Part shown: piece after piece, positions 1 through 39,914 of the stretch | How the letters are laid out: the number at the start of each line of letters is the position of its first letter | Position numbering within the stretch: the first letter of the stretch is position 1 | Virus record (IMG/VR): IMGVR_UViG_3300011116_000690 | Coordinates: 1 to 39,914 of that record | Origin: a virus | DNA: 39,914 bases | Reading direction: 5' to 3' (one strand) | Made by a program: the position numbers and the translations under genes | Notes under the pieces: generated by a model | Seen by the model: the letters and a program-made list of their open reading frames with translations, nothing else | What the model was told of the DNA's origin: nothing | Databases searched by the model: none

Positions 1-10
1 GCTGAACTAC

Positions 11-697
11 TTATTCCGCACTCTTTGCAACCTTGTCTTTGGCTATTTCACCTGCAAGCCATTGCACACCCTTAGCGGTGAATCTGGCTGTGTTGAATGC
101 ATGCCCGTTGTCTGCTGTGCCAGCCTTAACAGAAAAGCGCCCAGTGGTGATATGGTCAGCGTATGGCACCCATTCACCGCCCAGCTTGTACATGATCTTC
201 TTGTCGTCCAGGAAAGCGCGCAGATCAGGCTCCTTGATGTTGAGCAGCTTTGCTACTTGCCTGAATCCCTTTAATCCGGTGGAATCAACATAGCGGTCAA
301 CAAAGTCAATGGCAGGCTTTGCGGCCTCCAGTTGTGCTATGGCGGCTTGCTTAGATTCGACAGCATCAGCCCATGCTCTCGCAGCCGCTACAGGATCATT
401 AAAGTTGGGAAGTTGTACTGCTAAACCAGATTCAAGCTCTTGCCAGCGATCGACAAGGCGTGCGGTAAATGTAGGGGAAAGTTGCGCAACAATAACGTAA
501 GTGTCACGCTTTCCGATAAGATAGACTTTTTCAGTAATGCCATTTGCAGATTTATCGCCATCCCTCAATGCGGGTTGGGAAATTGCTCCTGATTTTACAA
601 GACGATCAATAGATGTCTTTACATGATCGTGCCTGGATTCGACTAAATCCGCTATTTCGCGGCTTGTCATGGTTGGGTTCGCTACTGTGAGGTTCAT
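11..697 (-). CDS. Rha/KilAC-type phage antirepressor, haplotype 1 copy
   Basis: 228 aa. Residues about 1-90 look like a phage Rha (pRha) DNA-binding domain: a start-proximal MTSREIADL helix and a region ending in VDRWQELE. Residues about 122-228 are a KilAC domain (QLEAAKPAIDFVDRYVDST, then KLLNIKEPDLRAFL). Proteins with this layout are phage antirepressors or regulators of lytic growth. The SD AAAGG lies 7 bases before the ATG. It is the last gene of the leftward early operon, and its leader carries the double hairpin at 718-821. A second copy at 37919-38602 has an almost identical C-terminus and a different N-terminus. Assignment to the antirepressor class is firm; its repressor target is not known. 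Confidence 0.85.
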   Translation of the reverse strand: MNLTVANPTMTSREIADLVESRHDHVKTSIDRLVKSGAISQPALRDGDKSANGITEKVYLIGKRDTYVIVAQLSPTFTARLVDRWQELESGLAVQLPNFNDPVAAARAWADAVESKQAAIAQLEAAKPAIDFVDRYVDSTGLKGFRQVAKLLNIKEPDLRAFLDDKKIMYKLGGEWVPYADHITTGRFSVKAGTADNGHAFNTARFTAKGVQWLAGEIAKDKVAKSAE

Positions 698-859: not shown

Positions 860-1117
860 TCAACCCTTTTTGCGGTTGTTCGTATGTATGTTTATTTTCT
901 TGATAGCTGACTTTACTTTTCTTAGTCGGCGTAATGCGTCTGATTTTCGGTACAATATGAAATTGATATACTTTTGCAATTTATCAGTTTTGGCTATGTT
1001 TCCATCATCGCTGGCAATTCCTTTCTCTATTTTCAATTGCCGGATATCTGCATCCAGTCCATCGATGATTTCGTGTAAGCCTTCTAGTTCTTCCGCAAGT
1101 TGTTCTTGATTGGTCAT
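860..1117 (-). CDS. Small predicted coiled-coil protein, unknown function
   Basis: 85 aa, not recognised. It is highly charged and predicted mostly helical: an acidic N-terminal half with leucine spacing suggesting a coiled coil, then a very basic C-terminal tail (RRLRKVKSAIKK, ending NNRKKG). SD AGGA stands 6 bases before the ATG. A 9-bp hairpin (1134-1158) followed by T5 lies directly upstream. The gene exists only in haplotype 1 of the accessory locus; the corresponding position in the second copy (38603-38852) has no gene. A nucleic-acid-binding or host-directed accessory protein would fit, but nothing in the sequence proves it. Confidence 0.6.
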   Translation of the reverse strand: MTNQEQLAEELEGLHEIIDGLDADIRQLKIEKGIASDDGNIAKTDKLQKYINFILYRKSDALRRLRKVKSAIKKINIHTNNRKKG

Positions 1118-1133
1118 GACTATTCCTAAAAAT

Positions 1134-1158
1134 AGCGCCAGGGGATTGTCCTAGCGCT
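1134..1158 (-). terminator. Hairpin with T-run before the 85-aa gene
   Basis: Arms 1134-1142 and 1150-1158 pair over 9 bp (one G-U) around a 7-nt loop. On the minus strand the stem is followed by ATTTTTAGG, so it could act as a partial terminator in front of the ribosome binding site of the 860-1117 gene. Confidence 0.45.
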
Positions 1159-1216
1159 TATGGTTGATATATAATTAAATATCCTACACCGACGATGCAG
1201 TAACGTATTGTCAAAG

Positions 1217-1248
1217 AAACGCGCTATTCCTTTACGGGTAGCGCGTTT
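1217..1248. repeat. Hairpin element B, copy 1 (CGCGCTA/TAGCGCG arms)
   Basis: A perfect 10-bp stem (1217-1226 with 1239-1248) around a 12-nt loop, immediately after the stop codon of the MazG-like gene. The same element, with nearly the same loop, follows the 67-codon-frame gene at 38853-38880 in the other haplotype. It has short T-runs on both sides, so it may terminate in either direction. It marks the downstream border of the swapped gene cassette. Confidence 0.7.
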
Positions 1249-1251
1249 TGT

Positions 1252-1674
1252 TTAGTATGCCTTGCCGCCCTCTTTAGCGCGATTCTCTGGCTTGTGGTCT
1301 GCCCTTTGCTCGTTATATGCCAATTTTTCAGCGATAGCGCCACCCAGGTCGTAACCCAATGCGCCCGCAAGATCAGCAATGCGAATCATGGCATCAGCCA
1401 GTTCTACTTCCAGCATCGGGCGATTCGGCAAATGGTCGTCCATCTTGTTTTTGCGGTGGCCTTCTAAGCCTTCGCTGATTTCGCTATGAATCAAGGCCAG
1501 CTTTTCTGCGACCAATGCTTTTCCAAAACGAGTACCGATACGCACTTCTTGTTTCAAATCCTGCGATCCTCCACCATTAGAGTGATACCACCATCCAGCT
1601 TTGCTTGCCGCTCCATGGCAAATACTTACAAGGGTTTCTCCAGCGGCTTGTGCTTGAATAAAATTACTCATCAT
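1252..1674 (-). CDS. MazG-like nucleoside triphosphate pyrophosphohydrolase
   Basis: 140 aa, all-helical. Residues about 57-125 carry the metal-binding pattern of the MazG/all-alpha NTP-PPase family: EKLALIHSEISEG gives E65 and E68, and EVELADAMIRIADLAG gives E89/E91 and D94. Family members hydrolyse (d)NTPs, or (p)ppGpp-related nucleotides, to monophosphates and pyrophosphate; phage versions are thought to tune nucleotide pools or blunt host alarmone signalling. The SD AAAGG precedes two adjacent ATGs (1674 and 1671); the second has better spacing. The gene lies between hairpin elements A (1689-1712) and B (1217-1248). In the second copy of this locus the same A-B interval holds an unrelated gene. 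Family call is good; substrate is unknown. Confidence 0.8.
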   Translation of the reverse strand: MMSNFIQAQAAGETLVSICHGAASKAGWWYHSNGGGSQDLKQEVRIGTRFGKALVAEKLALIHSEISEGLEGHRKNKMDDHLPNRPMLEVELADAMIRIADLAGALGYDLGGAIAEKLAYNEQRADHKPENRAKEGGKAY

Positions 1675-1688
1675 ATTTCCTTTGGTTA

Positions 1689-1712
1689 CGCGCTACTTGT
1701 GAGGGTAGCGCG
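1689..1712. repeat. Hairpin element A, copy 1
   Basis: Perfect 8-bp stem (1689-1696 with 1705-1712), 8-nt loop, between the 55-aa gene stop and the SD of the MazG-like gene. The element, including flanking ggggtgggg and cctttggtt, recurs at 39104-39127 in front of a different gene. It probably structures the mRNA leader; it also marks the cassette's upstream border. Confidence 0.7.
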
Positions 1713-1720
1713 GGGTGGGG

Positions 1721-1888
1721 TTAAGCTTTCGGCCATTCCATTTTTTCGACAAGTCGATGAAACGCAAAAGCACTGCGCGGCAAATGTGCATGTACTGTCT
1801 TGTCATGCTCACGATAATGCGATCCACAAGCAAAGCCAGCATACCTGCCTTCGCGCTTGTTGCGGGATATTAGGGGGCGAGTGTTCAT
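1721..1888 (-). CDS. Small conserved basic phage protein, haplotype 1 copy
   Basis: 55 aa, unknown function: M-N-T-R then a basic stretch ISRNKREGRYAGFACGSHYR and a C-terminal amphipathic helix. It is real because an equal-length homologue with mostly conservative differences is encoded at 39604-39771, so the reading frame is under selection. Its ATG overlaps the TGA of the 130-aa gene (ATGA, 1885-1888), indicating translational coupling in the leftward operon. Single Cys and three His could bind metal, but the pattern is not diagnostic. Confidence 0.7.
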   Translation of the reverse strand: MNTRPLISRNKREGRYAGFACGSHYREHDKTVHAHLPRSAFAFHRLVEKMEWPKA

Positions 1889-2277
1889 GATTTCACCTCA
1901 GCAGGGCGCTCGACCAGGCTATCACGCCAGGAGATGCCGGTGGTGTCGATGTTCAAAAAGCAGCTAATCTCTGCTGCCGAATATCCAGCACATGTCTTTG
2001 GATTTCCTGTATAGACATAAACAGCGCCATCACAAGTCATCATCGCAAATTTAAAATCTTTGAGGATATGCTCCCAGGGTATGGCTAGGCGCTTGATGGG
2101 CTTGGTGCGGTAGATTGAATCTATCAAAATGTGTGTTTTAATATGCATTTCTCGATAGTCGCCGTGCATAAAAGTTTCAGCATTGCAGTCCATGATGGCG
2201 TTCAGCAAAATATGCTGTTCTTCCCGCGAGCAGTCTTTGAATGGGAGTTTGGCTTCGTTCAGAAATTCTTGTGTCAT
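1885..2277 (-). CDS. Phage protein of unknown function (130 aa)
   Basis: Not recognised. Mixed alpha/beta composition with no signal peptide or membrane segment; a central DFKFAMMTCDGAVYVYTGNPKTC region and a C-terminal SWRDSLVERP. It overlaps both neighbours by ATGA junctions (2274-2277 upstream, 1885-1888 downstream), so it belongs to the leftward early operon. The last 133 bases of the window (39782-39914) encode the C-terminus of a near-identical copy, which is one of the observations tying the two window ends together. Confidence 0.7.
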   Translation of the reverse strand: MTQEFLNEAKLPFKDCSREEQHILLNAIMDCNAETFMHGDYREMHIKTHILIDSIYRTKPIKRLAIPWEHILKDFKFAMMTCDGAVYVYTGNPKTCAGYSAAEISCFLNIDTTGISWRDSLVERPAEVKS

Positions 2278-5266: not shown

Positions 5267-5463
5267 CCACCCCTACACAATTTACAATATTCATAAACCG
5301 GCACATTCTTGGCATTGCAGAACTGCCGGACTGATCTGGACTGGCCTGCACCATTTCTGCATCGTGGGCCGTAGCACATCCTCATTTCGCTCGGCTGAAT
5401 GTGCGGCTTCTGGTTGGCTATGTGGCGCTCGGCGGTGCGGGCTGCTGGGTCGTATGGGGTCAT
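5263..5463 (-). CDS. Small Cys-rich, probably zinc-binding protein
   Basis: 66 aa. Four cysteines in two pairs (MCYGPRC and FCNA ... YCKLCRGG) suggest one zinc site. The N-terminus is basic and disordered-looking. ATGA overlaps on both sides (5460-5463, 5263-5266) show tight translational coupling. Could be a DNA- or protein-binding adaptor; not identified. Confidence 0.6.
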   Translation of the reverse strand: MTPYDPAARTAERHIANQKPHIQPSEMRMCYGPRCRNGAGQSRSVRQFCNAKNVPVYEYCKLCRGG

Positions 5464-5642
5464 GGTTTATCTTCATCTCCAATTTGATAATTCAAAGCCA
5501 CGCAATCATCGCATGTATAGCTAACTAATTTGACCAATCTTTCCCATGCTTCTTGTGCATTTCTACGATCTGCACCACGATAATCCATCGCCAAAATGTG
5601 TAATTGCTCAAGCAAATTGTCATTCAGTTTTTGTTCTCTCAT
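5460..5642 (-). CDS. Small acidic phage protein, unknown function
   Basis: 60 aa, acidic, predicted helical (LLEQLHILAMDYRGADRRNAQEAWERLVKLV) with a CDDC-type pair (TCDDCVAL). Overlaps the repressor gene by ATGA (5639-5642), so it is the second gene after the early leftward promoter. No recognised family. Confidence 0.6.
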   Translation of the reverse strand: MREQKLNDNLLEQLHILAMDYRGADRRNAQEAWERLVKLVSYTCDDCVALNYQIGDEDKP

Positions 5643-5815
5643 TTCTCTCTCCGTTTAAAGTAAGCGTGTAATGTGTTGATTGTTGTCGGGCGCGGTATTC
5701 CTTTGCCGTTCAATATGTTTCTGATTGTGCTTAAGCTGACCTCTGTTTTAAACGTTACTTCTTTGTGTAAGCTTCTATCAGCTAGATGCATTTTTACGTA
5801 TTCAATTTTGTCCAT
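5639..5815 (-). CDS. Small HTH repressor (Cro/CI-like), first gene of the leftward operon
   Basis: 58 aa from the ATG at 5815, chosen for an excellent SD (AAGGAG, 5 bases upstream). Residues about 15-50 read as a helix-turn-helix: KEVTFKTEVSLSTIRNILNGKG, with the typical SLSTIRNIL recognition helix. It lacks the C-terminal oligomerisation/cleavage domain of lambda CI, so is Cro-sized. It is transcribed divergently from the 5963 gene, with a good promoter (-35 at 5859-5864, -10 at 5837-5842) and an inverted repeat overlapping the -10, consistent with autoregulation. Probably the switch repressor targeted by the antirepressors; that link is inference. Confidence 0.7.
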   Translation of the reverse strand: MDKIEYVKMHLADRSLHKEVTFKTEVSLSTIRNILNGKGIPRPTTINTLHAYFKRREK

Positions 5816-7565: not shown

Positions 7566-8312
7566 ATGAGTACAGCATTAGTATCACTCACGAGCAAATT
7601 AGCTCAAACTTTCAATCTTGGCGATGGTCAAGACTTGATGCCAACACTGAAGGCCACAGCATTTAAAGGACAGGTATCAGATGCGCAAATGACTGCTTTG
7701 CTGATCGTTGCCAATCAATACGGCCTGAATCCGTGGACTCGTGAAATTTATGCCTTTCCTGACCAGAATAACGGCATTGTCCCGGTCGTTGGCGTTGATG
7801 GCTGGAGCCGGATTATCAACTCACACAGCCAGTTTGATGGCATGGAGTTTGACCAAGACGAAGAAAAATGCACATGCAAGATTTATCGCAAAGACCGTAG
7901 TCATGCCACATCTGTGACCGAGTACATGAGCGAATGCAGGCGCGAAGTAAAGCCCTGGAAATCGCACCCAAAACGCATGTTGCGTCACAAGGCCATGATT
8001 CAGTGTGCACGCTTGGCCTTCGGCTTTGTCGGCATCTATGAGCAAGACGAGGCCGAGCGCATCATGGAAGTTGACGCGCCAGCAGTTGAGCAGATAGATA
8101 TCACGCCGCTGGTCAATGCAGCAAGGCAGACAACGACCGACGAGGAAGCACTAAAATTCTGGAAAGAAAACAATGCTCAGTTGAATAAGTTTCCGGCAGC
8201 ACATGCGCAATTGAAGTCCGAAGTTATGGCGCACCGCGAATATCTGAAAACTCAGTCCGCAAAGACAATTGAACAGCCACCGGAAGAAGGCAAAGAATAT
8301 GTACCAGCATAG
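7566..8312 (+). CDS. bet: Phage recombination protein Bet (RecT/Red-beta superfamily ssDNA annealing protein)
   Basis: 248 aa. Core features of the Bet family: residues 30-60 ATAFKGQVSDAQMTALLIVANQYGLNPWT, then REIYAFP, GIVPVVGVDGWSRIIN and HPKRMLRHKAMIQCARLAFGF. Bet anneals complementary single strands and works with an exonuclease, here the YqaJ protein whose gene overlaps its 3' end. It drives recombination during replication and is a reason such phages are mosaic. SD AGGGG before the ATG. High confidence. Confidence 0.93.
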   Translation: MSTALVSLTSKLAQTFNLGDGQDLMPTLKATAFKGQVSDAQMTALLIVANQYGLNPWTREIYAFPDQNNGIVPVVGVDGWSRIINSHSQFDGMEFDQDEEKCTCKIYRKDRSHATSVTEYMSECRREVKPWKSHPKRMLRHKAMIQCARLAFGFVGIYEQDEAERIMEVDAPAVEQIDITPLVNAARQTTTDEEALKFWKENNAQLNKFPAAHAQLKSEVMAHREYLKTQSAKTIEQPPEEGKEYVPA

Positions 8313-8946
8313 GCCATTCACAATCATCGATACTGCGCAGAGGTCGCCAGAATGGTTTGCAGCCCGCCTGGCGCGTGTAACGGCAAGCAACGCTAAGTTG
8401 ATACTCATGGGAGATACAACAGCAGGGCGCAGTGGTTACGTGCTTCAGCTTGCCCTTGAGTCGCTAACTGGCAAAAGCGTTGAGGAAGAAATATTTGTTA
8501 GCAAAGAAATGCAGCGCGGCATTGATAAGGAACCTCTGGCACGCATGCAGGCCGAGGCTGGCGGTCACTTCATACGTGAGACAGGATTTCTTGCGCATGA
8601 CACTATGATGATAGGCGCGTCGCTGGATGGTGATGAAGATGATTTTGAAACCATTTGGGAGTTTAAATGCCCAAAATCAAATACGCATTTGAAGTACCTG
8701 GAATCAAATGGCGACTTGCTGCAAAAGGATTACCAACCGCAACTGATGCACGGTCTGTACGTCACTGGCGCAAAGCAGGCAATCATAGGCAGCTTTGATG
8801 ATCGTTTGCCTGAAGGCTTGCAGTGGGTTCAGAAAGAAATAAAAGTGCAAGACTTGCCTATGGCTGAATATGAGAATTCACTTATGAAATTTCTTAAAGA
8901 CGTTCAGGCAATGAAAGATAAACTTCAAGCCCTGCAATTGAGGTAG
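8299..8946 (+). CDS. YqaJ-family viral recombinase exonuclease (Red-alpha counterpart)
   Basis: 215 aa from the ATG at 8299 (GAAGG upstream, start inside the Bet gene). Pattern of the YqaJ/lambda exonuclease fold: RSPEWFAARLARVTAS near the start, then GASLDG (D110) and WEFKCPK (E121, K123), forming the PD-(D/E)xK active site, and DYQPQLMHGLYVTG. It should chew 5' ends of double-stranded DNA to give substrate for Bet. Overlap with bet and matching order confirm the pair. Confidence 0.9.
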   Translation: MYQHRPFTIIDTAQRSPEWFAARLARVTASNAKLILMGDTTAGRSGYVLQLALESLTGKSVEEEIFVSKEMQRGIDKEPLARMQAEAGGHFIRETGFLAHDTMMIGASLDGDEDDFETIWEFKCPKSNTHLKYLESNGDLLQKDYQPQLMHGLYVTGAKQAIIGSFDDRLPEGLQWVQKEIKVQDLPMAEYENSLMKFLKDVQAMKDKLQALQLR

Positions 8947-35787: not shown

Positions 35788-36078
35788 CTACAGAAACATG
35801 CCAAATCTATCGATACTAGAAAATATCAGGCGGTCTTCTTCGCCTCTGCTTTTTACTTGCAATGAATCTGATTCGCCATGCAAAACAGCGCTAACAAATA
35901 CACTACTGTCAAACTCACCTGAGCCTATTACCTCTATAGTTCCTTTCGGCATCATCTGCCTGATCATGTCTAGCATGCTTTCAAATACTATTCTGTGAAC
36001 CAGCATGTTAGGAAATGACATTGGTAGGTTGTAGTGGAACCCATCTTCTTGGGTGCATTTTATGATGATGTATTTCAT
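35788..36078 (-). CDS. Phage protein of unknown function (96 aa)
   Basis: 96 aa from the ATG at 36078, overlapping the methyltransferase-like stop (ATGA). Alpha/beta (MKYIIIKCTQEDGFHYNLP, then MLDMIRQMMPKGTIEVIGSG and a C-terminal strand). Not recognised. Likely translated together with the gene above it. Confidence 0.5.
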   Translation of the reverse strand: MKYIIIKCTQEDGFHYNLPMSFPNMLVHRIVFESMLDMIRQMMPKGTIEVIGSGEFDSSVFVSAVLHGESDSLQVKSRGEEDRLIFSSIDRFGMFL

Positions 36079-36701
36079 AATTTGCTCCACTGCTCTGCCA
36101 TAGCATTAGCAATCGATTCTCTTGTACGGCTGCGTTCTTTTTCTCTGTTCGGTCCAAATGGCATATTGTGGCAATCTGCAAATATTTCTGGGTAGTCACT
36201 TTTCTGATGCGTCGGCACAAGCTTTGGCAAACCTTTTAACCACAGATACGCGCCCTTTGTGTATGGCTCACCAAACATCCAAGGCTGCACGATCTGGTCA
36301 TATTTGCCGATATGCGACATTGCCAAACCGTGCGGCTGAGAGTTTTCAAGGCAAATTTTGTCAATCGGCGCATTCTTAAGAGCATTGAAAAACGCAGCCC
36401 CTGCAAGAAAGTTATCCATCCTGTTAAGGTATTTTGGATGCCGCCTGCGCTTCTCTGCTGGCAAATGTGTATCTTCTGGGTGATACATCCAGCGAATGCC
36501 GGATAAACAGTTGTAGGTGCAATAAGGATGCCCTATCAGCATATCCCAGCCTTGATCAAGTATGCCCAGAACGTCGCCCTGTATATGCCAGCCGTGTGGC
36601 GATTCTGTCGGCCTCAAGTCACACGAAACTGCTGTATGTCCACGCTTTGCAAATGCGTCACGAACGCGACCTGAATATTCACACGCAATTAATATTTTCA
36701 C
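36075..36701 (-). CDS. Short cytosine-methyltransferase-like protein
   Basis: 208 aa from a GTG at 36701, chosen because AAAGGAAG lies 5-6 bases upstream and the next residues KILIACEYSGRVRDAFAKRG give the SAM-binding FAGxG-like motif I. Then SCDLRPTE (motif II), DMLIGHPYCTYNCLSG (motif IV, with Cys where C5-MTases have PC), and ICLENSQP (motif VI ENV-like). It lacks a full target-recognition domain, so it may be a non-catalytic or atypical family known as small phage DNA methylase-like proteins. Role: protection from restriction is possible, unproven. Confidence 0.7.
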   Translation of the reverse strand: MKILIACEYSGRVRDAFAKRGHTAVSCDLRPTESPHGWHIQGDVLGILDQGWDMLIGHPYCTYNCLSGIRWMYHPEDTHLPAEKRRRHPKYLNRMDNFLAGAAFFNALKNAPIDKICLENSQPHGLAMSHIGKYDQIVQPWMFGEPYTKGAYLWLKGLPKLVPTHQKSDYPEIFADCHNMPFGPNREKERSRTRESIANAMAEQWSKL

Positions 36702-36772
36702 AACACTTCCTTTCAATATTCGTACCCATGTTCTTTCGCTGCTTGCTCTGCAAATGTGCGCTGGATCATGGT

Positions 36773-37617: not shown

Positions 37618-37918
37618 GGTATTCCTCACTTATCGTTTAGACATAGAGCAAGACAAGTAAAGGTTACCTACCCTTACTCTAGCCATTGTTTATAAAGACT
37701 GCATTAAACAACTACTACTGCCAAAAGCTAATCGTTCTTTTTCCAGAGCGCCGTTATCGTGGGCTAAACGCTAATGTAACCTTGTCTGCTCTGTTCTGGT
37801 GATACCCGATTAAAGTTCACCGCGCCGTCTTGCTAGTAAGCGCACCCTCTTTTGTTCCACGCGGGGAAGGACATGCCCCCTTAGTTATCCGTCTGGAGTA
37901 CGGTTGTAGCTGAACTAC
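37618..37918 (-). other. 301-base noncoding region with a large bulged stem
   Basis: No gene found. A long-range pairing of gagca-gacaa-ggttac (37646-37667, with bulged bases) with gtaacc-ttgtc-tgctc (37776-37791) encloses about 108 bases, with smaller stems inside. Further right, ggggaaggacat/gcccc (about 37862-37880) may form a small stem. This may be a structured leader for the 37270-37617 operon. Confidence 0.45.
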
Positions 37919-38602
37919 TTATTCCGCACTCTTTGCAACCTTGTCTTTGGCTATTTCACCTGCAAGCCATTGCACACCCTTAGCGGTGAATCTGGCTGTG
38001 TTGAATGCATGCCCGTTGTCTGCTGTGCCAGCCTTCACAGAAAAGCGCCCAGCGGCGATATGGTCAGCATATGGAACCCATTCACCGCCAAGCTTATACA
38101 TGATCTTCTTGTCGTCCAGGAAAGCGCGCAAAACAGGCTCCTTGATATTCAGCAGCTTTGCTACTTGCCTGAAGCCTTTTAATCCGGTGGAGTCAACATA
38201 GCGATCAACAAAGTCAATGGCAGGCTTTGCGGCCTCCAGTTGCGCATTCTGCGCGTCAATTGTCTCTTGCTGTGCCAATGCCAGCCTGAGCGCTTCTGTA
38301 AAGGTGGTAGGGGTCTTGAATTGCGGTGCGGCTTCCAGCTCAAGCCAGCGATCAATGATGCGCTTACGCATAACTACGTTGTAGCCAGATACCAATGTAA
38401 GCGTCAAATCTTTGGGAAGCACAAACTCAGAATAGGTTTGCTTGTTTTGGGGGTGTATCCAGTTTTGGAGATACCCTTGTCTGGGAATTTCTAACTCTGA
38501 CATCATGACTTCAATGTCACGGATGACATGGGCATGTTCTTTGCCAGTCAAGCCAGCTATCTCACGACTTGTCATCGTGGATTCTTTTATTGCGAGATTC
38601 AT
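37919..38602 (-). CDS. Rha/KilAC-type antirepressor, haplotype 2 copy
   Basis: 227 aa. Residues 1-90 are a typical Rha domain (MTSREIAGLTGKEHAHVIRD, then GYLQNWIHPQNKQTYSEF, LPKDLTLTLVSGYNVVMRKR and DRWLELEAA), closer to the standard Rha pattern than copy 1. From about residue 121 on (QLEAAKPAIDFVDRYVDST) the KilAC half is nearly identical to the 11-697 protein. Thus N-terminus swapped, C-terminus shared. Expressed from a leader containing the junction at 38622-38699; SD GAGGT. Confidence 0.88.
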   Translation of the reverse strand: MNLAIKESTMTSREIAGLTGKEHAHVIRDIEVMMSELEIPRQGYLQNWIHPQNKQTYSEFVLPKDLTLTLVSGYNVVMRKRIIDRWLELEAAPQFKTPTTFTEALRLALAQQETIDAQNAQLEAAKPAIDFVDRYVDSTGLKGFRQVAKLLNIKEPVLRAFLDDKKIMYKLGGEWVPYADHIAAGRFSVKAGTADNGHAFNTARFTAKGVQWLAGEIAKDKVAKSAE

Positions 38603-38621
38603 TGATTTTTACCTCAATCCC

Positions 38622-38699
38622 GCGCTCAGGGTGTGGAGCTGACAACTCCGAGAAGTTAGGAGCGTTGGCCTTGCGGTTGCAACTCTCCACCCTGAGCGC
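38622..38699 (-). promoter_or_regulatory. Structured 78-nt leader (three-way junction) before antirepressor 2
   Basis: Arms gcgctcaggg (38622-38631) and ccctgagcgc (38690-38699) plus tggag/ctcca give a 15-bp bulged stem. Inside, minus strand: a TTGC-AACC-GCAA tetraloop hairpin and a CAACGCTCC/GGAGTTG hairpin, i.e. a three-way junction. It ends 20 bases before the start codon, the same place where haplotype 1 has its kissing hairpins, yet unrelated in sequence. A regulatory RNA role is inference. Confidence 0.55.
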
Positions 38700-38852
38700 A
38701 CTTCTTTTGCGTTATCCACCTGCTGTCATACAGAATGGGGCTAATGGCTCATCTGAAATTGCTTCAGACAGTTATATCTTAATCCAAGATCATGAAAATT
38801 TCAAACAAAAATGCAAAGTATTCTGCATTTCCACATCGCAAAGTGTTGCAAG

Positions 38853-38880
38853 ACGCGCTATTCATTTACGGGTAGCGCGT
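38853..38880. repeat. Hairpin element B, copy 2
   Basis: Perfect 8-bp stem acgcgcta/tagcgcgt around a 12-nt loop that differs from copy 1 at one base. It follows the stop of the 38890 gene by 9 bases and is the same element as at 1217-1248. Confidence 0.7.
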
Positions 38881-38889
38881 TTTGTTTAA

Positions 38890-39084
38890 CTAAAAACGAT
38901 TAATACGCTGACCAAGAATTTGGCTATACTCTTGCATGTGAGTGCATTGTAGATTCAGCAGTTCCTGATCAAAAATTGCCAAATCTTGAAACCCAGCATT
39001 TGTTTCAATAAATTGCTCAAGTTTTTCAAGCTTATCATCAAGATCGTTTTTCTCATCAATTACACGTTTTTGATACGGGCTCAT
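38890..39084 (-). CDS. Small crAss001_48-related-like protein
   Basis: 64 aa from the ATG at 39084 (SD AAAGG 9 bases upstream; the ATG at 39093 is too close to the SD). Sequence SPYQKRVIDEKNDLDDKLEKLEQFIE, then LLNLQCTHMQEYSQILGQRINRF, is the all-helical pattern of a small-protein family that annotators call crAss001_48-related, frequent in phage accessory loci and of unknown function. It occupies the A-B cassette where haplotype 1 has MazG. Its location next to Tad1 suggests a counter-defence role, which is a guess. Confidence 0.6.
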   Translation of the reverse strand: MSPYQKRVIDEKNDLDDKLEKLEQFIETNAGFQDLAIFDQELLNLQCTHMQEYSQILGQRINRF

Positions 39085-39103
39085 TATTTTCATCCTTTGG
39101 TTG

Positions 39104-39127
39104 CGCGCTACTTTTGATGGTAGCGCG
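39104..39127. repeat. Hairpin element A, copy 2
   Basis: Perfect 8-bp stem cgcgctac/gtagcgcg with an 8-nt loop. Flanks cctttggtt and ggggtggggttaa are as at 1683-1723. Here it stands between the Tad1-like stop and the SD of the 38890 gene. Confidence 0.7.
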
Positions 39128-39135
39128 GGGTGGGG

Positions 39136-39552
39136 TTAAACTGTATGCGTACCTTCTACACCGCGACGCATGCGCTCTATGGTGCGCTGTTGCAGCCAGT
39201 GTTGCGCTTCTTCAATATGAGTCAGCGCGCAGGCATTAGCCTTACAAGAAAATGGGCCAGCTTGAAAGCTACGCAGGCGGTCTGCTACAATGGCAAGCAA
39301 TACTTCATGCGTTATGCCATTCACGCCAGCTTCAGGTATCGGGCCATTTTGGAAGACAATAGCAATATTCCTGCTATCTGTAGTAAACCCAGGGAGATGT
39401 CCTGATGCATCTCTTCCAGATGGATTATTTGCAACATCAAAACCAGTAATTTGATACCGATGATTTGCACCGCCCGAACCAGGCTCATCTGTCACTTGAA
39501 TTGTGATAGTGTCATTGGCAGGATTAATTTTGTGTTCGTTTATTTCACGCAT
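39136..39552 (-). CDS. Tad1-like cyclic-nucleotide sponge (anti-Thoeris/anti-CBASS)
   Basis: 138 aa from the ATG at 39552, chosen for SD GGAGAAG. Residues about 76-138 match the helical-hairpin domain shared by Acb2 and Tad1: AGVNGITHEVLLAIVADRLRSF, then AGPFSCKANACALTHIEEA and a C-terminal RRGVEGTH. Residues 1-75 are the beta-rich N-terminal part (NDTITIQVTDEPG; GANHRYQITGF; RNIAIVFQNGPI) that Tad1 has and Acb2 lacks. Tad1 proteins form hexamers that sequester gcADPR signals of Thoeris and some also CBASS cyclic oligonucleotides. Present in only one haplotype. Domain call from memory of the family, without a search. Confidence 0.75.
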   Translation of the reverse strand: MREINEHKINPANDTITIQVTDEPGSGGANHRYQITGFDVANNPSGRDASGHLPGFTTDSRNIAIVFQNGPIPEAGVNGITHEVLLAIVADRLRSFQAGPFSCKANACALTHIEEAQHWLQQRTIERMRRGVEGTHTV

Positions 39553-39572
39553 TTTTACTTCTCCATAAAGTT

Positions 39573-39589
39573 GCAATTGTCCGAATTGC
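39573..39589 (-). promoter_or_regulatory. Hairpin before the Tad1-like gene
   Basis: gcaatt (39573-39578) and aattgc (39584-39589) form a 6-bp stem with a 5-nt loop just upstream of the SD. Same relative place as the hairpins of the other accessory genes. Confidence 0.4.
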
Positions 39590-39603
39590 GGCGGCTCTAA
39601 AAA

Positions 39604-39771
39604 TTAATCTGTTGCCCATTTCATTTGTTCTACTAGTCTAAGTAATGCAAAGACACTTCTCGGCAAATGTACATATACTGACTTGTCACGGTCACGATAA
39701 TGCGATCCACAAGCAAAGCCAGCATACCTGCCTTCGCGCTTGTTGCGGGATATGAGAATTCTTTGGTTCAT
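39604..39771 (-). CDS. Small conserved basic phage protein, haplotype 2 copy
   Basis: 55 aa from the ATG at 39771 with SD AAAGGA 8 bases upstream, chosen to match its equal-length homologue at 1721-1888 (both have ISRNKREGRYAGFACGSHYR). In-frame Met codons further upstream lack an SD. Here it is separated from the preceding gene by 10 bases rather than overlapping. Conservation of frame with many base changes shows that it is a real gene. Confidence 0.7.
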   Translation of the reverse strand: MNQRILISRNKREGRYAGFACGSHYRDRDKSVYVHLPRSVFALLRLVEQMKWATD

Positions 39772-39781
39772 GATCATCCTT

Positions 39782-39914
39782 TCATTTATCAGCAGGGCGC
39801 TCGACCAGGCTATCACGCCAGGAGATGCCGGTGGTGTCGATGTTCAAAAAGCAGCTAATCTCTGCTGCCGAATATCCAGCACATGTCTTTGGATTTCCTG
39901 TATAGACATAAACA
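39782..39914 (-). CDS. 3' end of the 130-aa gene, cut by the window end
   Basis: Partial frame entering at 39914 and ending TGA at 39782-39784. The encoded C-terminus (VYVYTGNPKTCAGYSAAEIS ... SLVERPADK) is the same as that of 1885-2277 until the last three residues (PAEVKS there). It joins the two window ends when the sequence is treated as circular. Confidence 0.75.
   Translation of the reverse strand, partial: VYVYTGNPKTCAGYSAAEISCFLNIDTTGISWRDSLVERPADK

Follow-up and report, generated by a model that had tools for sequence, protein, structure and literature searches.

Two versions of one locus in a single viral record

The window, that is, the whole stretch of DNA analysed, comprises a whole virus record, 39,914 bases long, in which positions 37909-39914 are an altered version of positions 1-2023. 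The minus strand encodes every gene of the locus (Table 1). Read in the direction of the genes, the first version, hereafter haplotype 1, consists of a 130-aa gene, a 55-aa gene, stem-loop B, a MazG-like gene, stem-loop A, stem-loop C, an 85-aa gene and a Rha/KilAC antirepressor gene (KilAC), and haplotype 2 consists of the 130-aa and 55-aa genes, a Tad1 gene, stem-loop B, a crAss001_48-family gene, stem-loop A and KilAC. By window coordinate the order is KilAC, 85 aa, hairpin A, MazG, hairpin B and 55 aa in haplotype 1, and KilAC, hairpin A, crAss001_48, hairpin B, Tad1 and 55 aa in haplotype 2. The cargo of this slot is unalignable between the haplotypes (33% identity). Within KilAC, the C-terminal part is 95% identical at the nucleotide level and the N-terminal Rha part 52%, the Rha half having been replaced together with its leader. 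Large, stable and mutually unrelated stem-loops are found near the start codons of the two KilAC alleles (38602-38720 and 697-800, with -46.9 and -24 kcal/mol), and may be sites of translational or transcriptional control of the antirepressor.

Table 1. Coordinates of the features of the locus and of the candidate recombination genes
Feature	Position	Strand	Evidence
Left anchor (assembly overlap; KilAC C-terminus)	1..127	none	identical to 37909-38035
Rha/KilAC antirepressor, haplotype 1, 228 aa; C-terminal part shared, N-terminal swapped	11..697	-	PF03374 4.8e-24, PF09669 1.4e-9
85-aa ORFan, haplotype 1 cargo	860..1117	-	no Pfam or PHROG match; NCBIfam matches far below cut-off only
Stem-loop C, leader of 85-aa gene	1110..1160	-	97% over 37-39 nt to leader of unrelated 60-aa gene in L003
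Hairpin A, haplotype 1, 3' of MazG, terminator-like	1219..1254	-	35/36 identical to 38853-38888; z -5.1
MazG-like all-alpha NTP pyrophosphatase, haplotype 1 cargo, 140 aa	1252..1674	-	phrog_5658 8.7e-64; EXXE-N22-EXXD
Hairpin B, haplotype 1, 5' leader of MazG	1678..1727	-	46/50 identical to 39093-39142; z -4.0
55-aa flanking gene, haplotype 1	1721..1888	-	73% aa to haplotype 2 copy; homologue in L003
130-aa flanking gene, shared flank	1885..2277	-	57% aa identity to L003
Bet/RecT-like annealing protein and RecE-like exonuclease, candidate exchange drivers	7566..8946	+	phrog_252 3.5e-88, phrog_149 6.4e-23
Rha/KilAC antirepressor, haplotype 2, 227 aa	37919..38602	-	PF03374 5.8e-24, PF09669 1.5e-12
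Hairpin A, haplotype 2, 3' of crAss001_48 gene	38853..38888	-	35/36 identical to 1219-1254; folding
crAss001_48-family helical hairpin, haplotype 2 cargo, 67 aa	38890..39093	-	PF21825 1.5e-18; AlphaFold mean pLDDT 96.8
Hairpin B, haplotype 2, 5' leader of crAss001_48 gene	39093..39142	-	46/50 identical to 1678-1727; folding
Tad1 homologue, haplotype 2 cargo, 138 aa	39136..39552	-	phmmer 3.8e-19 to solved Thoeris anti-defense 1
55-aa flanking gene, haplotype 2	39604..39771	-	73% aa to haplotype 1 copy
Right anchor	39789..39914	none	identical to 1898-2023

Identity between the two versions is exact over 127 bases at the left edge, where the match then breaks, and over 126 bases at the right edge. 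Exact end overlaps of this length point to a de Bruijn bubble with k of about 127 that was unrolled as arm 1, core and arm 2, and hence to haplotypes; a linear duplication gives no reason for such start and end points, and the bubble reading is therefore preferred. We infer that the record contains a single circularly closing phage genome of about 37.9 kb and, in addition, an alternative form of one locus, the two versions being co-existing haplotypes of one population rather than a duplication. A second copy of any other part of the genome was not found in the window, in which the assembler may have collapsed smaller variation.

The MazG and crAss001_48 genes are bounded by the same two GCGCTA...TAGCGC stem-loops. 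With every gene of the locus read from the minus strand, the swapped gene has B as its 5' leader and A as its 3' hairpin: B stands immediately 5' of the ribosome-binding site of both genes, and A comes after the stop codons; the tail of A is T-rich in haplotype 1 and in the relative L003 (see below) and poor in haplotype 2. Between the arms, hairpin B is 92% and hairpin A 97% identical, with blastn E-values (2e-16 and 4e-12, respectively) that exclude chance. The strict GCGCTA/TAGCGC stem is present four times in the window, always inside the slot, against an expectation of 0.03. In both arms A and B fold far better than shuffled sequences (z -3.6 to -5.1), and C does so more weakly (z -3.0); the stems are too invariant for a covariation check of the pairing. 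A search for sigma-70-type sites detected no such promoter in the gene direction within A, B or C, and an Rfam scan assigned the stem-loops to no known RNA family, the only matches above threshold being tRNA in the window and int-alpA RNA in L095. The slot leaders follow the patterns GCGCTACC-N(6)-AGTAGCGCG and AATCCCCTGGCGCTATTTTT; in a scan of IMG/VR, the exact pattern of hairpin A had no match apart from its own (excluded) record.

The original prediction that one site holds alternative cargo is borne out by these 92-97% identical boundaries around unrelated genes. The gene sets and hairpins A and B that it listed are present, but Tad1 lies outside the A-B pair, the two hairpins are 3' and 5' elements, and there is a third stem-loop, C, in front of the 85-aa gene. 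What had been called the same 55-aa gene is instead a homologous one (82% nucleotide and 73% amino acid identity), and the antirepressor C-terminus is indeed shared, with the qualification that the N-terminal Rha part is swapped too.

Cargo genes and their relationships

The 138-aa protein of haplotype 2 is, on solid sequence grounds, a true Tad1 homologue. Its phmmer match to solved structures (8kbg, 7uav and others) spans residues 17-137 and covers the β-sheet and the helical hairpin, the homology extending over 120 residues; against Pfam PF24729 the protein scores 16 bits, below the cut-off of 27. It is about 13 residues longer than cbTad1. If a one-residue offset of the PDB construct is allowed, F96, N106 and R123 are aligned opposite F82, N92 and R109, which together with R57 we take to be the ligand contacts of cbTad1; I72 stands in place of R57, so that on this alignment three of the four presumed contacts appear to be conserved. 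In other phages Tad1 occupies unrelated accessory positions. According to PMC12043709, Tad1 blocks Thoeris and CBASS as a hexamer that sequesters gcADPR and cyclic di- and trinucleotides.

The MazG-like protein of haplotype 1 had no match in a Pfam search and matches the PHROG pyrophosphatase profile phrog_5658 (8.7e-64) as well as phrog_3301 (2e-22). Its metal-binding motif, EXXE(12-28)EXXD, is intact, with EXXE at residues 65-68 followed by 22 residues and then ELAD. The nearest solved structure is a weak match to MazZ (E 0.02), from which no Z-genome is claimed. MazG genes of other phages, like those for Tad1, are found at unrelated accessory positions. An anti-defence role would have a precedent in Atd1, a phage MazG-like pyrophosphatase reported to be an anti-TIR-STING gene (PMC10419184); the protein described here is likewise a MazG-like pyrophosphatase at a phage accessory position but, unlike Atd1, has no adjacent CD-NTase-like gene that could be seen in the slot. 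Cyanophage MazG is reported not to cleave magic-spot nucleotides (PMC6850273). The 85-aa protein of haplotype 1 and the 77-aa and 60-aa cargo proteins of the relative L003 matched no family.

The 67-aa protein of haplotype 2 scores 66.9 bits against PF21825 (cut-off 24.8), and its AlphaFold model consists of two long helices. Fold searches returned generic helical hairpins, with no Acb2 chain among the matches listed, and a sequence comparison with Acb2 by means of a nine-member profile gave no match; a literature search on crAss001_48 found nothing. Tad1 and crAss001_48 occur in the same record in only one of 50 Tad1-bearing viral contigs, which rules out a conserved operon of the two. Related proteins elsewhere are fused to other domains, whereas the member found here is a separate protein. 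The partner is a Tad2-like domain (PF11195) in Vibrio phage 1.205.O (L103:2986-3498), a fusion that aligns with six phage records over at least 80% of its length, and in Bacteroides phage BS162P1 (L131:475-1101); other partners are Gp49_66 and a small domain tied to Tad2-like sequence by a PHROG family. Pseudomonas phage phi1 has a crAss001_48 fusion gene two genes downstream of ninG, a position similar to that seen here. By guilt by association, the recurrent Tad2-like fusion suggests a link between crAss001_48 and counter-defence.

As a C-terminal domain, crAss001_48 is found behind Gp49_66, a phrog_1761 domain (which may be Acb2-like) or a 'YIGTKI' domain (L106:2051-2710, L107:1991-2704, L108:2246-2710, L109:2288-2719, L104:2761-3186 and L117:1085-1447). 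Judged by these architectures, Gp49_66, phrog_1761, 'YIGTKI' and crAss001_48 appear to be small phage domains that are shuffled among themselves. The N-terminus of the L109 fusion gave a single weak match to Acb2 (9ptq, 'Acb2 homolog 43', E 1.2), which was not reproduced with a family profile; a fold search was uninformative, and one of eight members of this type matched PF24729 at 0.057.

A third arrangement in a relative

Among 2.9 million viral contigs, searches with the 130-aa protein, leader B and leader C each returned one contig, L003 (genome G051, 44.8 kb), which is collinear with the window across most structural genes at 37-80% amino acid identity. It has the same flank of NinG, 130-aa and 55-aa genes, followed by two ORFans, one of 77 aa behind leader B and one of 60 aa behind leader C, and then by an A-type terminator; at the other flank of its slot there is no KilAC, and an HNH endonuclease gene directly adjoins the slot. 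When all leaders of both genomes were compared, matches before non-homologous genes were concentrated at the slot: 97% over 37 nt for the 85-aa and 60-aa genes, 94% over 35 nt for MazG and the 77-aa gene, 94% over 47 nt for MazG and crAss001_48, and 85% over 40 nt for crAss001_48 and the 77-aa gene. The haplotype 1 leaders B and C share 91-97% identity with their G051 counterparts, more than most shared coding regions do (67-77% at the nucleotide level). By these comparisons at least three gene sets occupy the slot, and its boundaries are better conserved than the cargo.

The 55-aa and 130-aa genes had no match in bacterial genomes and so led to no prophage relatives, and the survey of relatives rests on three arrangements; among named phages the 55-aa gene had no match. 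Several candidate relatives of the slot were rejected: L091 encodes a genuine 47-aa homologue of the 55-aa gene but in another neighbourhood, the 55-aa-like match in L090 was unconvincing, and the KilAC relatives L004-L008 do not have the flank in common.

The int-alpA RNA (RF02996, 40.4 bits; L095:2743-2807, minus strand) lies beside the HNH endonuclease gene that adjoins the slot in the relative. A non-coding-looking element in the gap between hairpin A and KilAC (window 38795-38849) is 89% identical over 57 bp to L003:4085-4139, which precedes a helicase gene.

Probable gene exchange at the slot and its possible meaning

Our preferred reading, to which we assign a probability of roughly 0.6, is that the nin/antirepressor region of a lambdoid-type phage has here a site at which accessory genes are exchanged, and that the record captures this site in two states within one population, with genes swapped by RecT/RecE-type recombination at the stem-loops and cargo biased to genes that act on nucleotides or nucleotide signals. 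Besides the annealing protein and exonuclease, the phage encodes NinB/Orf and NinG/Rap. Each swapped gene would be provided with a leader stem-loop (B or C) on its 5' side and the terminator-like A on its 3' side, all with the same GCGCTA stem; these elements would act as expression signals and, being conserved, would offer short stretches of homology for the phage's own RecT/RecE-type recombination to replace one gene by another. Conserved boundaries of 36-50 bp around unrelated genes, combined with an annealing system, make annealing-type recombination the simplest route, and we infer the roles of recombinase and stem-loops on that basis. The stem-loops probably persist because no cargo gene can do without a leader and a terminator, and would serve as homology at the same time. 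With Tad1 predicted to sequester alarm signals (cyclic ADP-ribose and cyclic oligonucleotides) and MazG-like enzymes to cleave nucleotides or alarmones, a swap of cargo could change the range of host defences that the phage survives.

The principle is already known from the promoter/stem-loop (PeSL) cassettes of T4-like phages (Arbiol 2010; Comeau 2014, cited in PMC4503421). PeSLs likewise are stem-loops between small early genes, with conservation tied to gene shuffling; a PeSL carries an early promoter, however, whereas no sigma-70-like promoter was detected in the elements described here, and our phage, unlike the T4-like ones, is lambdoid-like (NinG, NinB, KilAC) and displays the swap as two haplotypes. 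Boundary-sequence and Red/Rad52 mosaicism in lambdoid phages (PMC2327257, PMC3945230) likewise involves replacement between conserved flanks and a phage annealing recombinase; the boundaries here differ in being structured stem-loops with one common stem sequence. What is new is the haplotype-resolved example and the crAss001_48-Tad2 link.

Alternatively, the variation could be ordinary mosaicism, the nin/antirepressor region serving as a dump for non-essential early genes, the stem-loops being the plain leaders and terminators that every insert needs, and Tad1 and MazG having no special defence meaning. Relaxed phage recombination is a well-known source of such mosaicism (PMC2327257, PMC3945230), the 85-, 77- and 60-aa cargo genes are ORFans, Tad1 and MazG are elsewhere found at unrelated sites, and the N-terminal half of KilAC has been swapped as well. 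We nevertheless regard this explanation as somewhat unlikely, given that Tad1 is certain, that MazG-like proteins and crAss001_48 are each independently linked to counter-defence, and that A, B and, in part, C have a stem in common that the rest of the genome lacks.

That last distribution also bears on the idea that stem-loop and gene form a mobile cassette handled by a dedicated palindrome-recognising enzyme (attC-like or REP-like). The same palindromic core does flank each swapped gene, and the HNH endonuclease gene beside the slot of L003 could fit such a scheme; yet no recombinase, transposase or integrase gene is seen in the slot, the strict stem has no copies elsewhere in either genome, and no other IMG/VR contig contains the hairpin patterns, which makes a mobile cassette very improbable. 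Least probable of all, to the point of being nearly negligible, is a chimera of two different phages produced by the assembler. It is true that this is an IMG/VR assembly and that the record ends overlap by about one k-mer length, but the overlaps are exact at both ends, the same flanking genes are joined to both arms, L003 independently has the same leaders beside the same flank and, even in a bubble, real reads underlie both arms.

The slot is thus probably used by phages to trade accessory genes, those against immunity among them. That it is exchangeable is well supported by the sequence comparisons, including the expectation that relatives would hold still other genes: L003, the sole relative found, has two different ORFans behind the same leaders. 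That it is a counter-defence slot, as had also been proposed, is plausible and partly supported. The predicted Tad1 proved a real homologue, MazG has its precedent in Atd1 and crAss001_48 its fusions to Tad2-like domains, but the 85-, 77- and 60-aa proteins match nothing; and while the relative's genes differ from those of the window, as an exchangeable slot would have it, Tad1 and MazG also occur elsewhere, as they would if placed without regard to it. A bolder version, which we think unlikely, would make the stem-loops a dedicated, recombination-ready site for counter-defence cassettes and crAss001_48 an unrecognised partner or variant of nucleotide-signal sponges, the two haplotypes representing enzymatic (MazG) versus sequestering (Tad1 plus crAss001_48) answers to signal-based immunity.

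The record offers a population-level view of a phage that changes a small accessory set while the rest of the genome is assembled as a single version, the likely exchange points being marked by a conserved stem-loop. The slot can be mined, in that genes between these stem-loops in relatives are candidates for anti-defence functions, and the crAss001_48-Tad2-like fusions provide a concrete hypothesis and a possible clue to the function of the widespread PF21825 domain.

Two further observations concern the genome outside the slot. A DNA methyltransferase gene at 36075-36716 (phrog_757, 1.4e-48) is a possible anti-restriction gene. The region of a 60-aa gene at 5460-5652 has 89% DNA identity to L003, far above the genome average, with different genes downstream, and by this pattern appears to be another recent exchange point.
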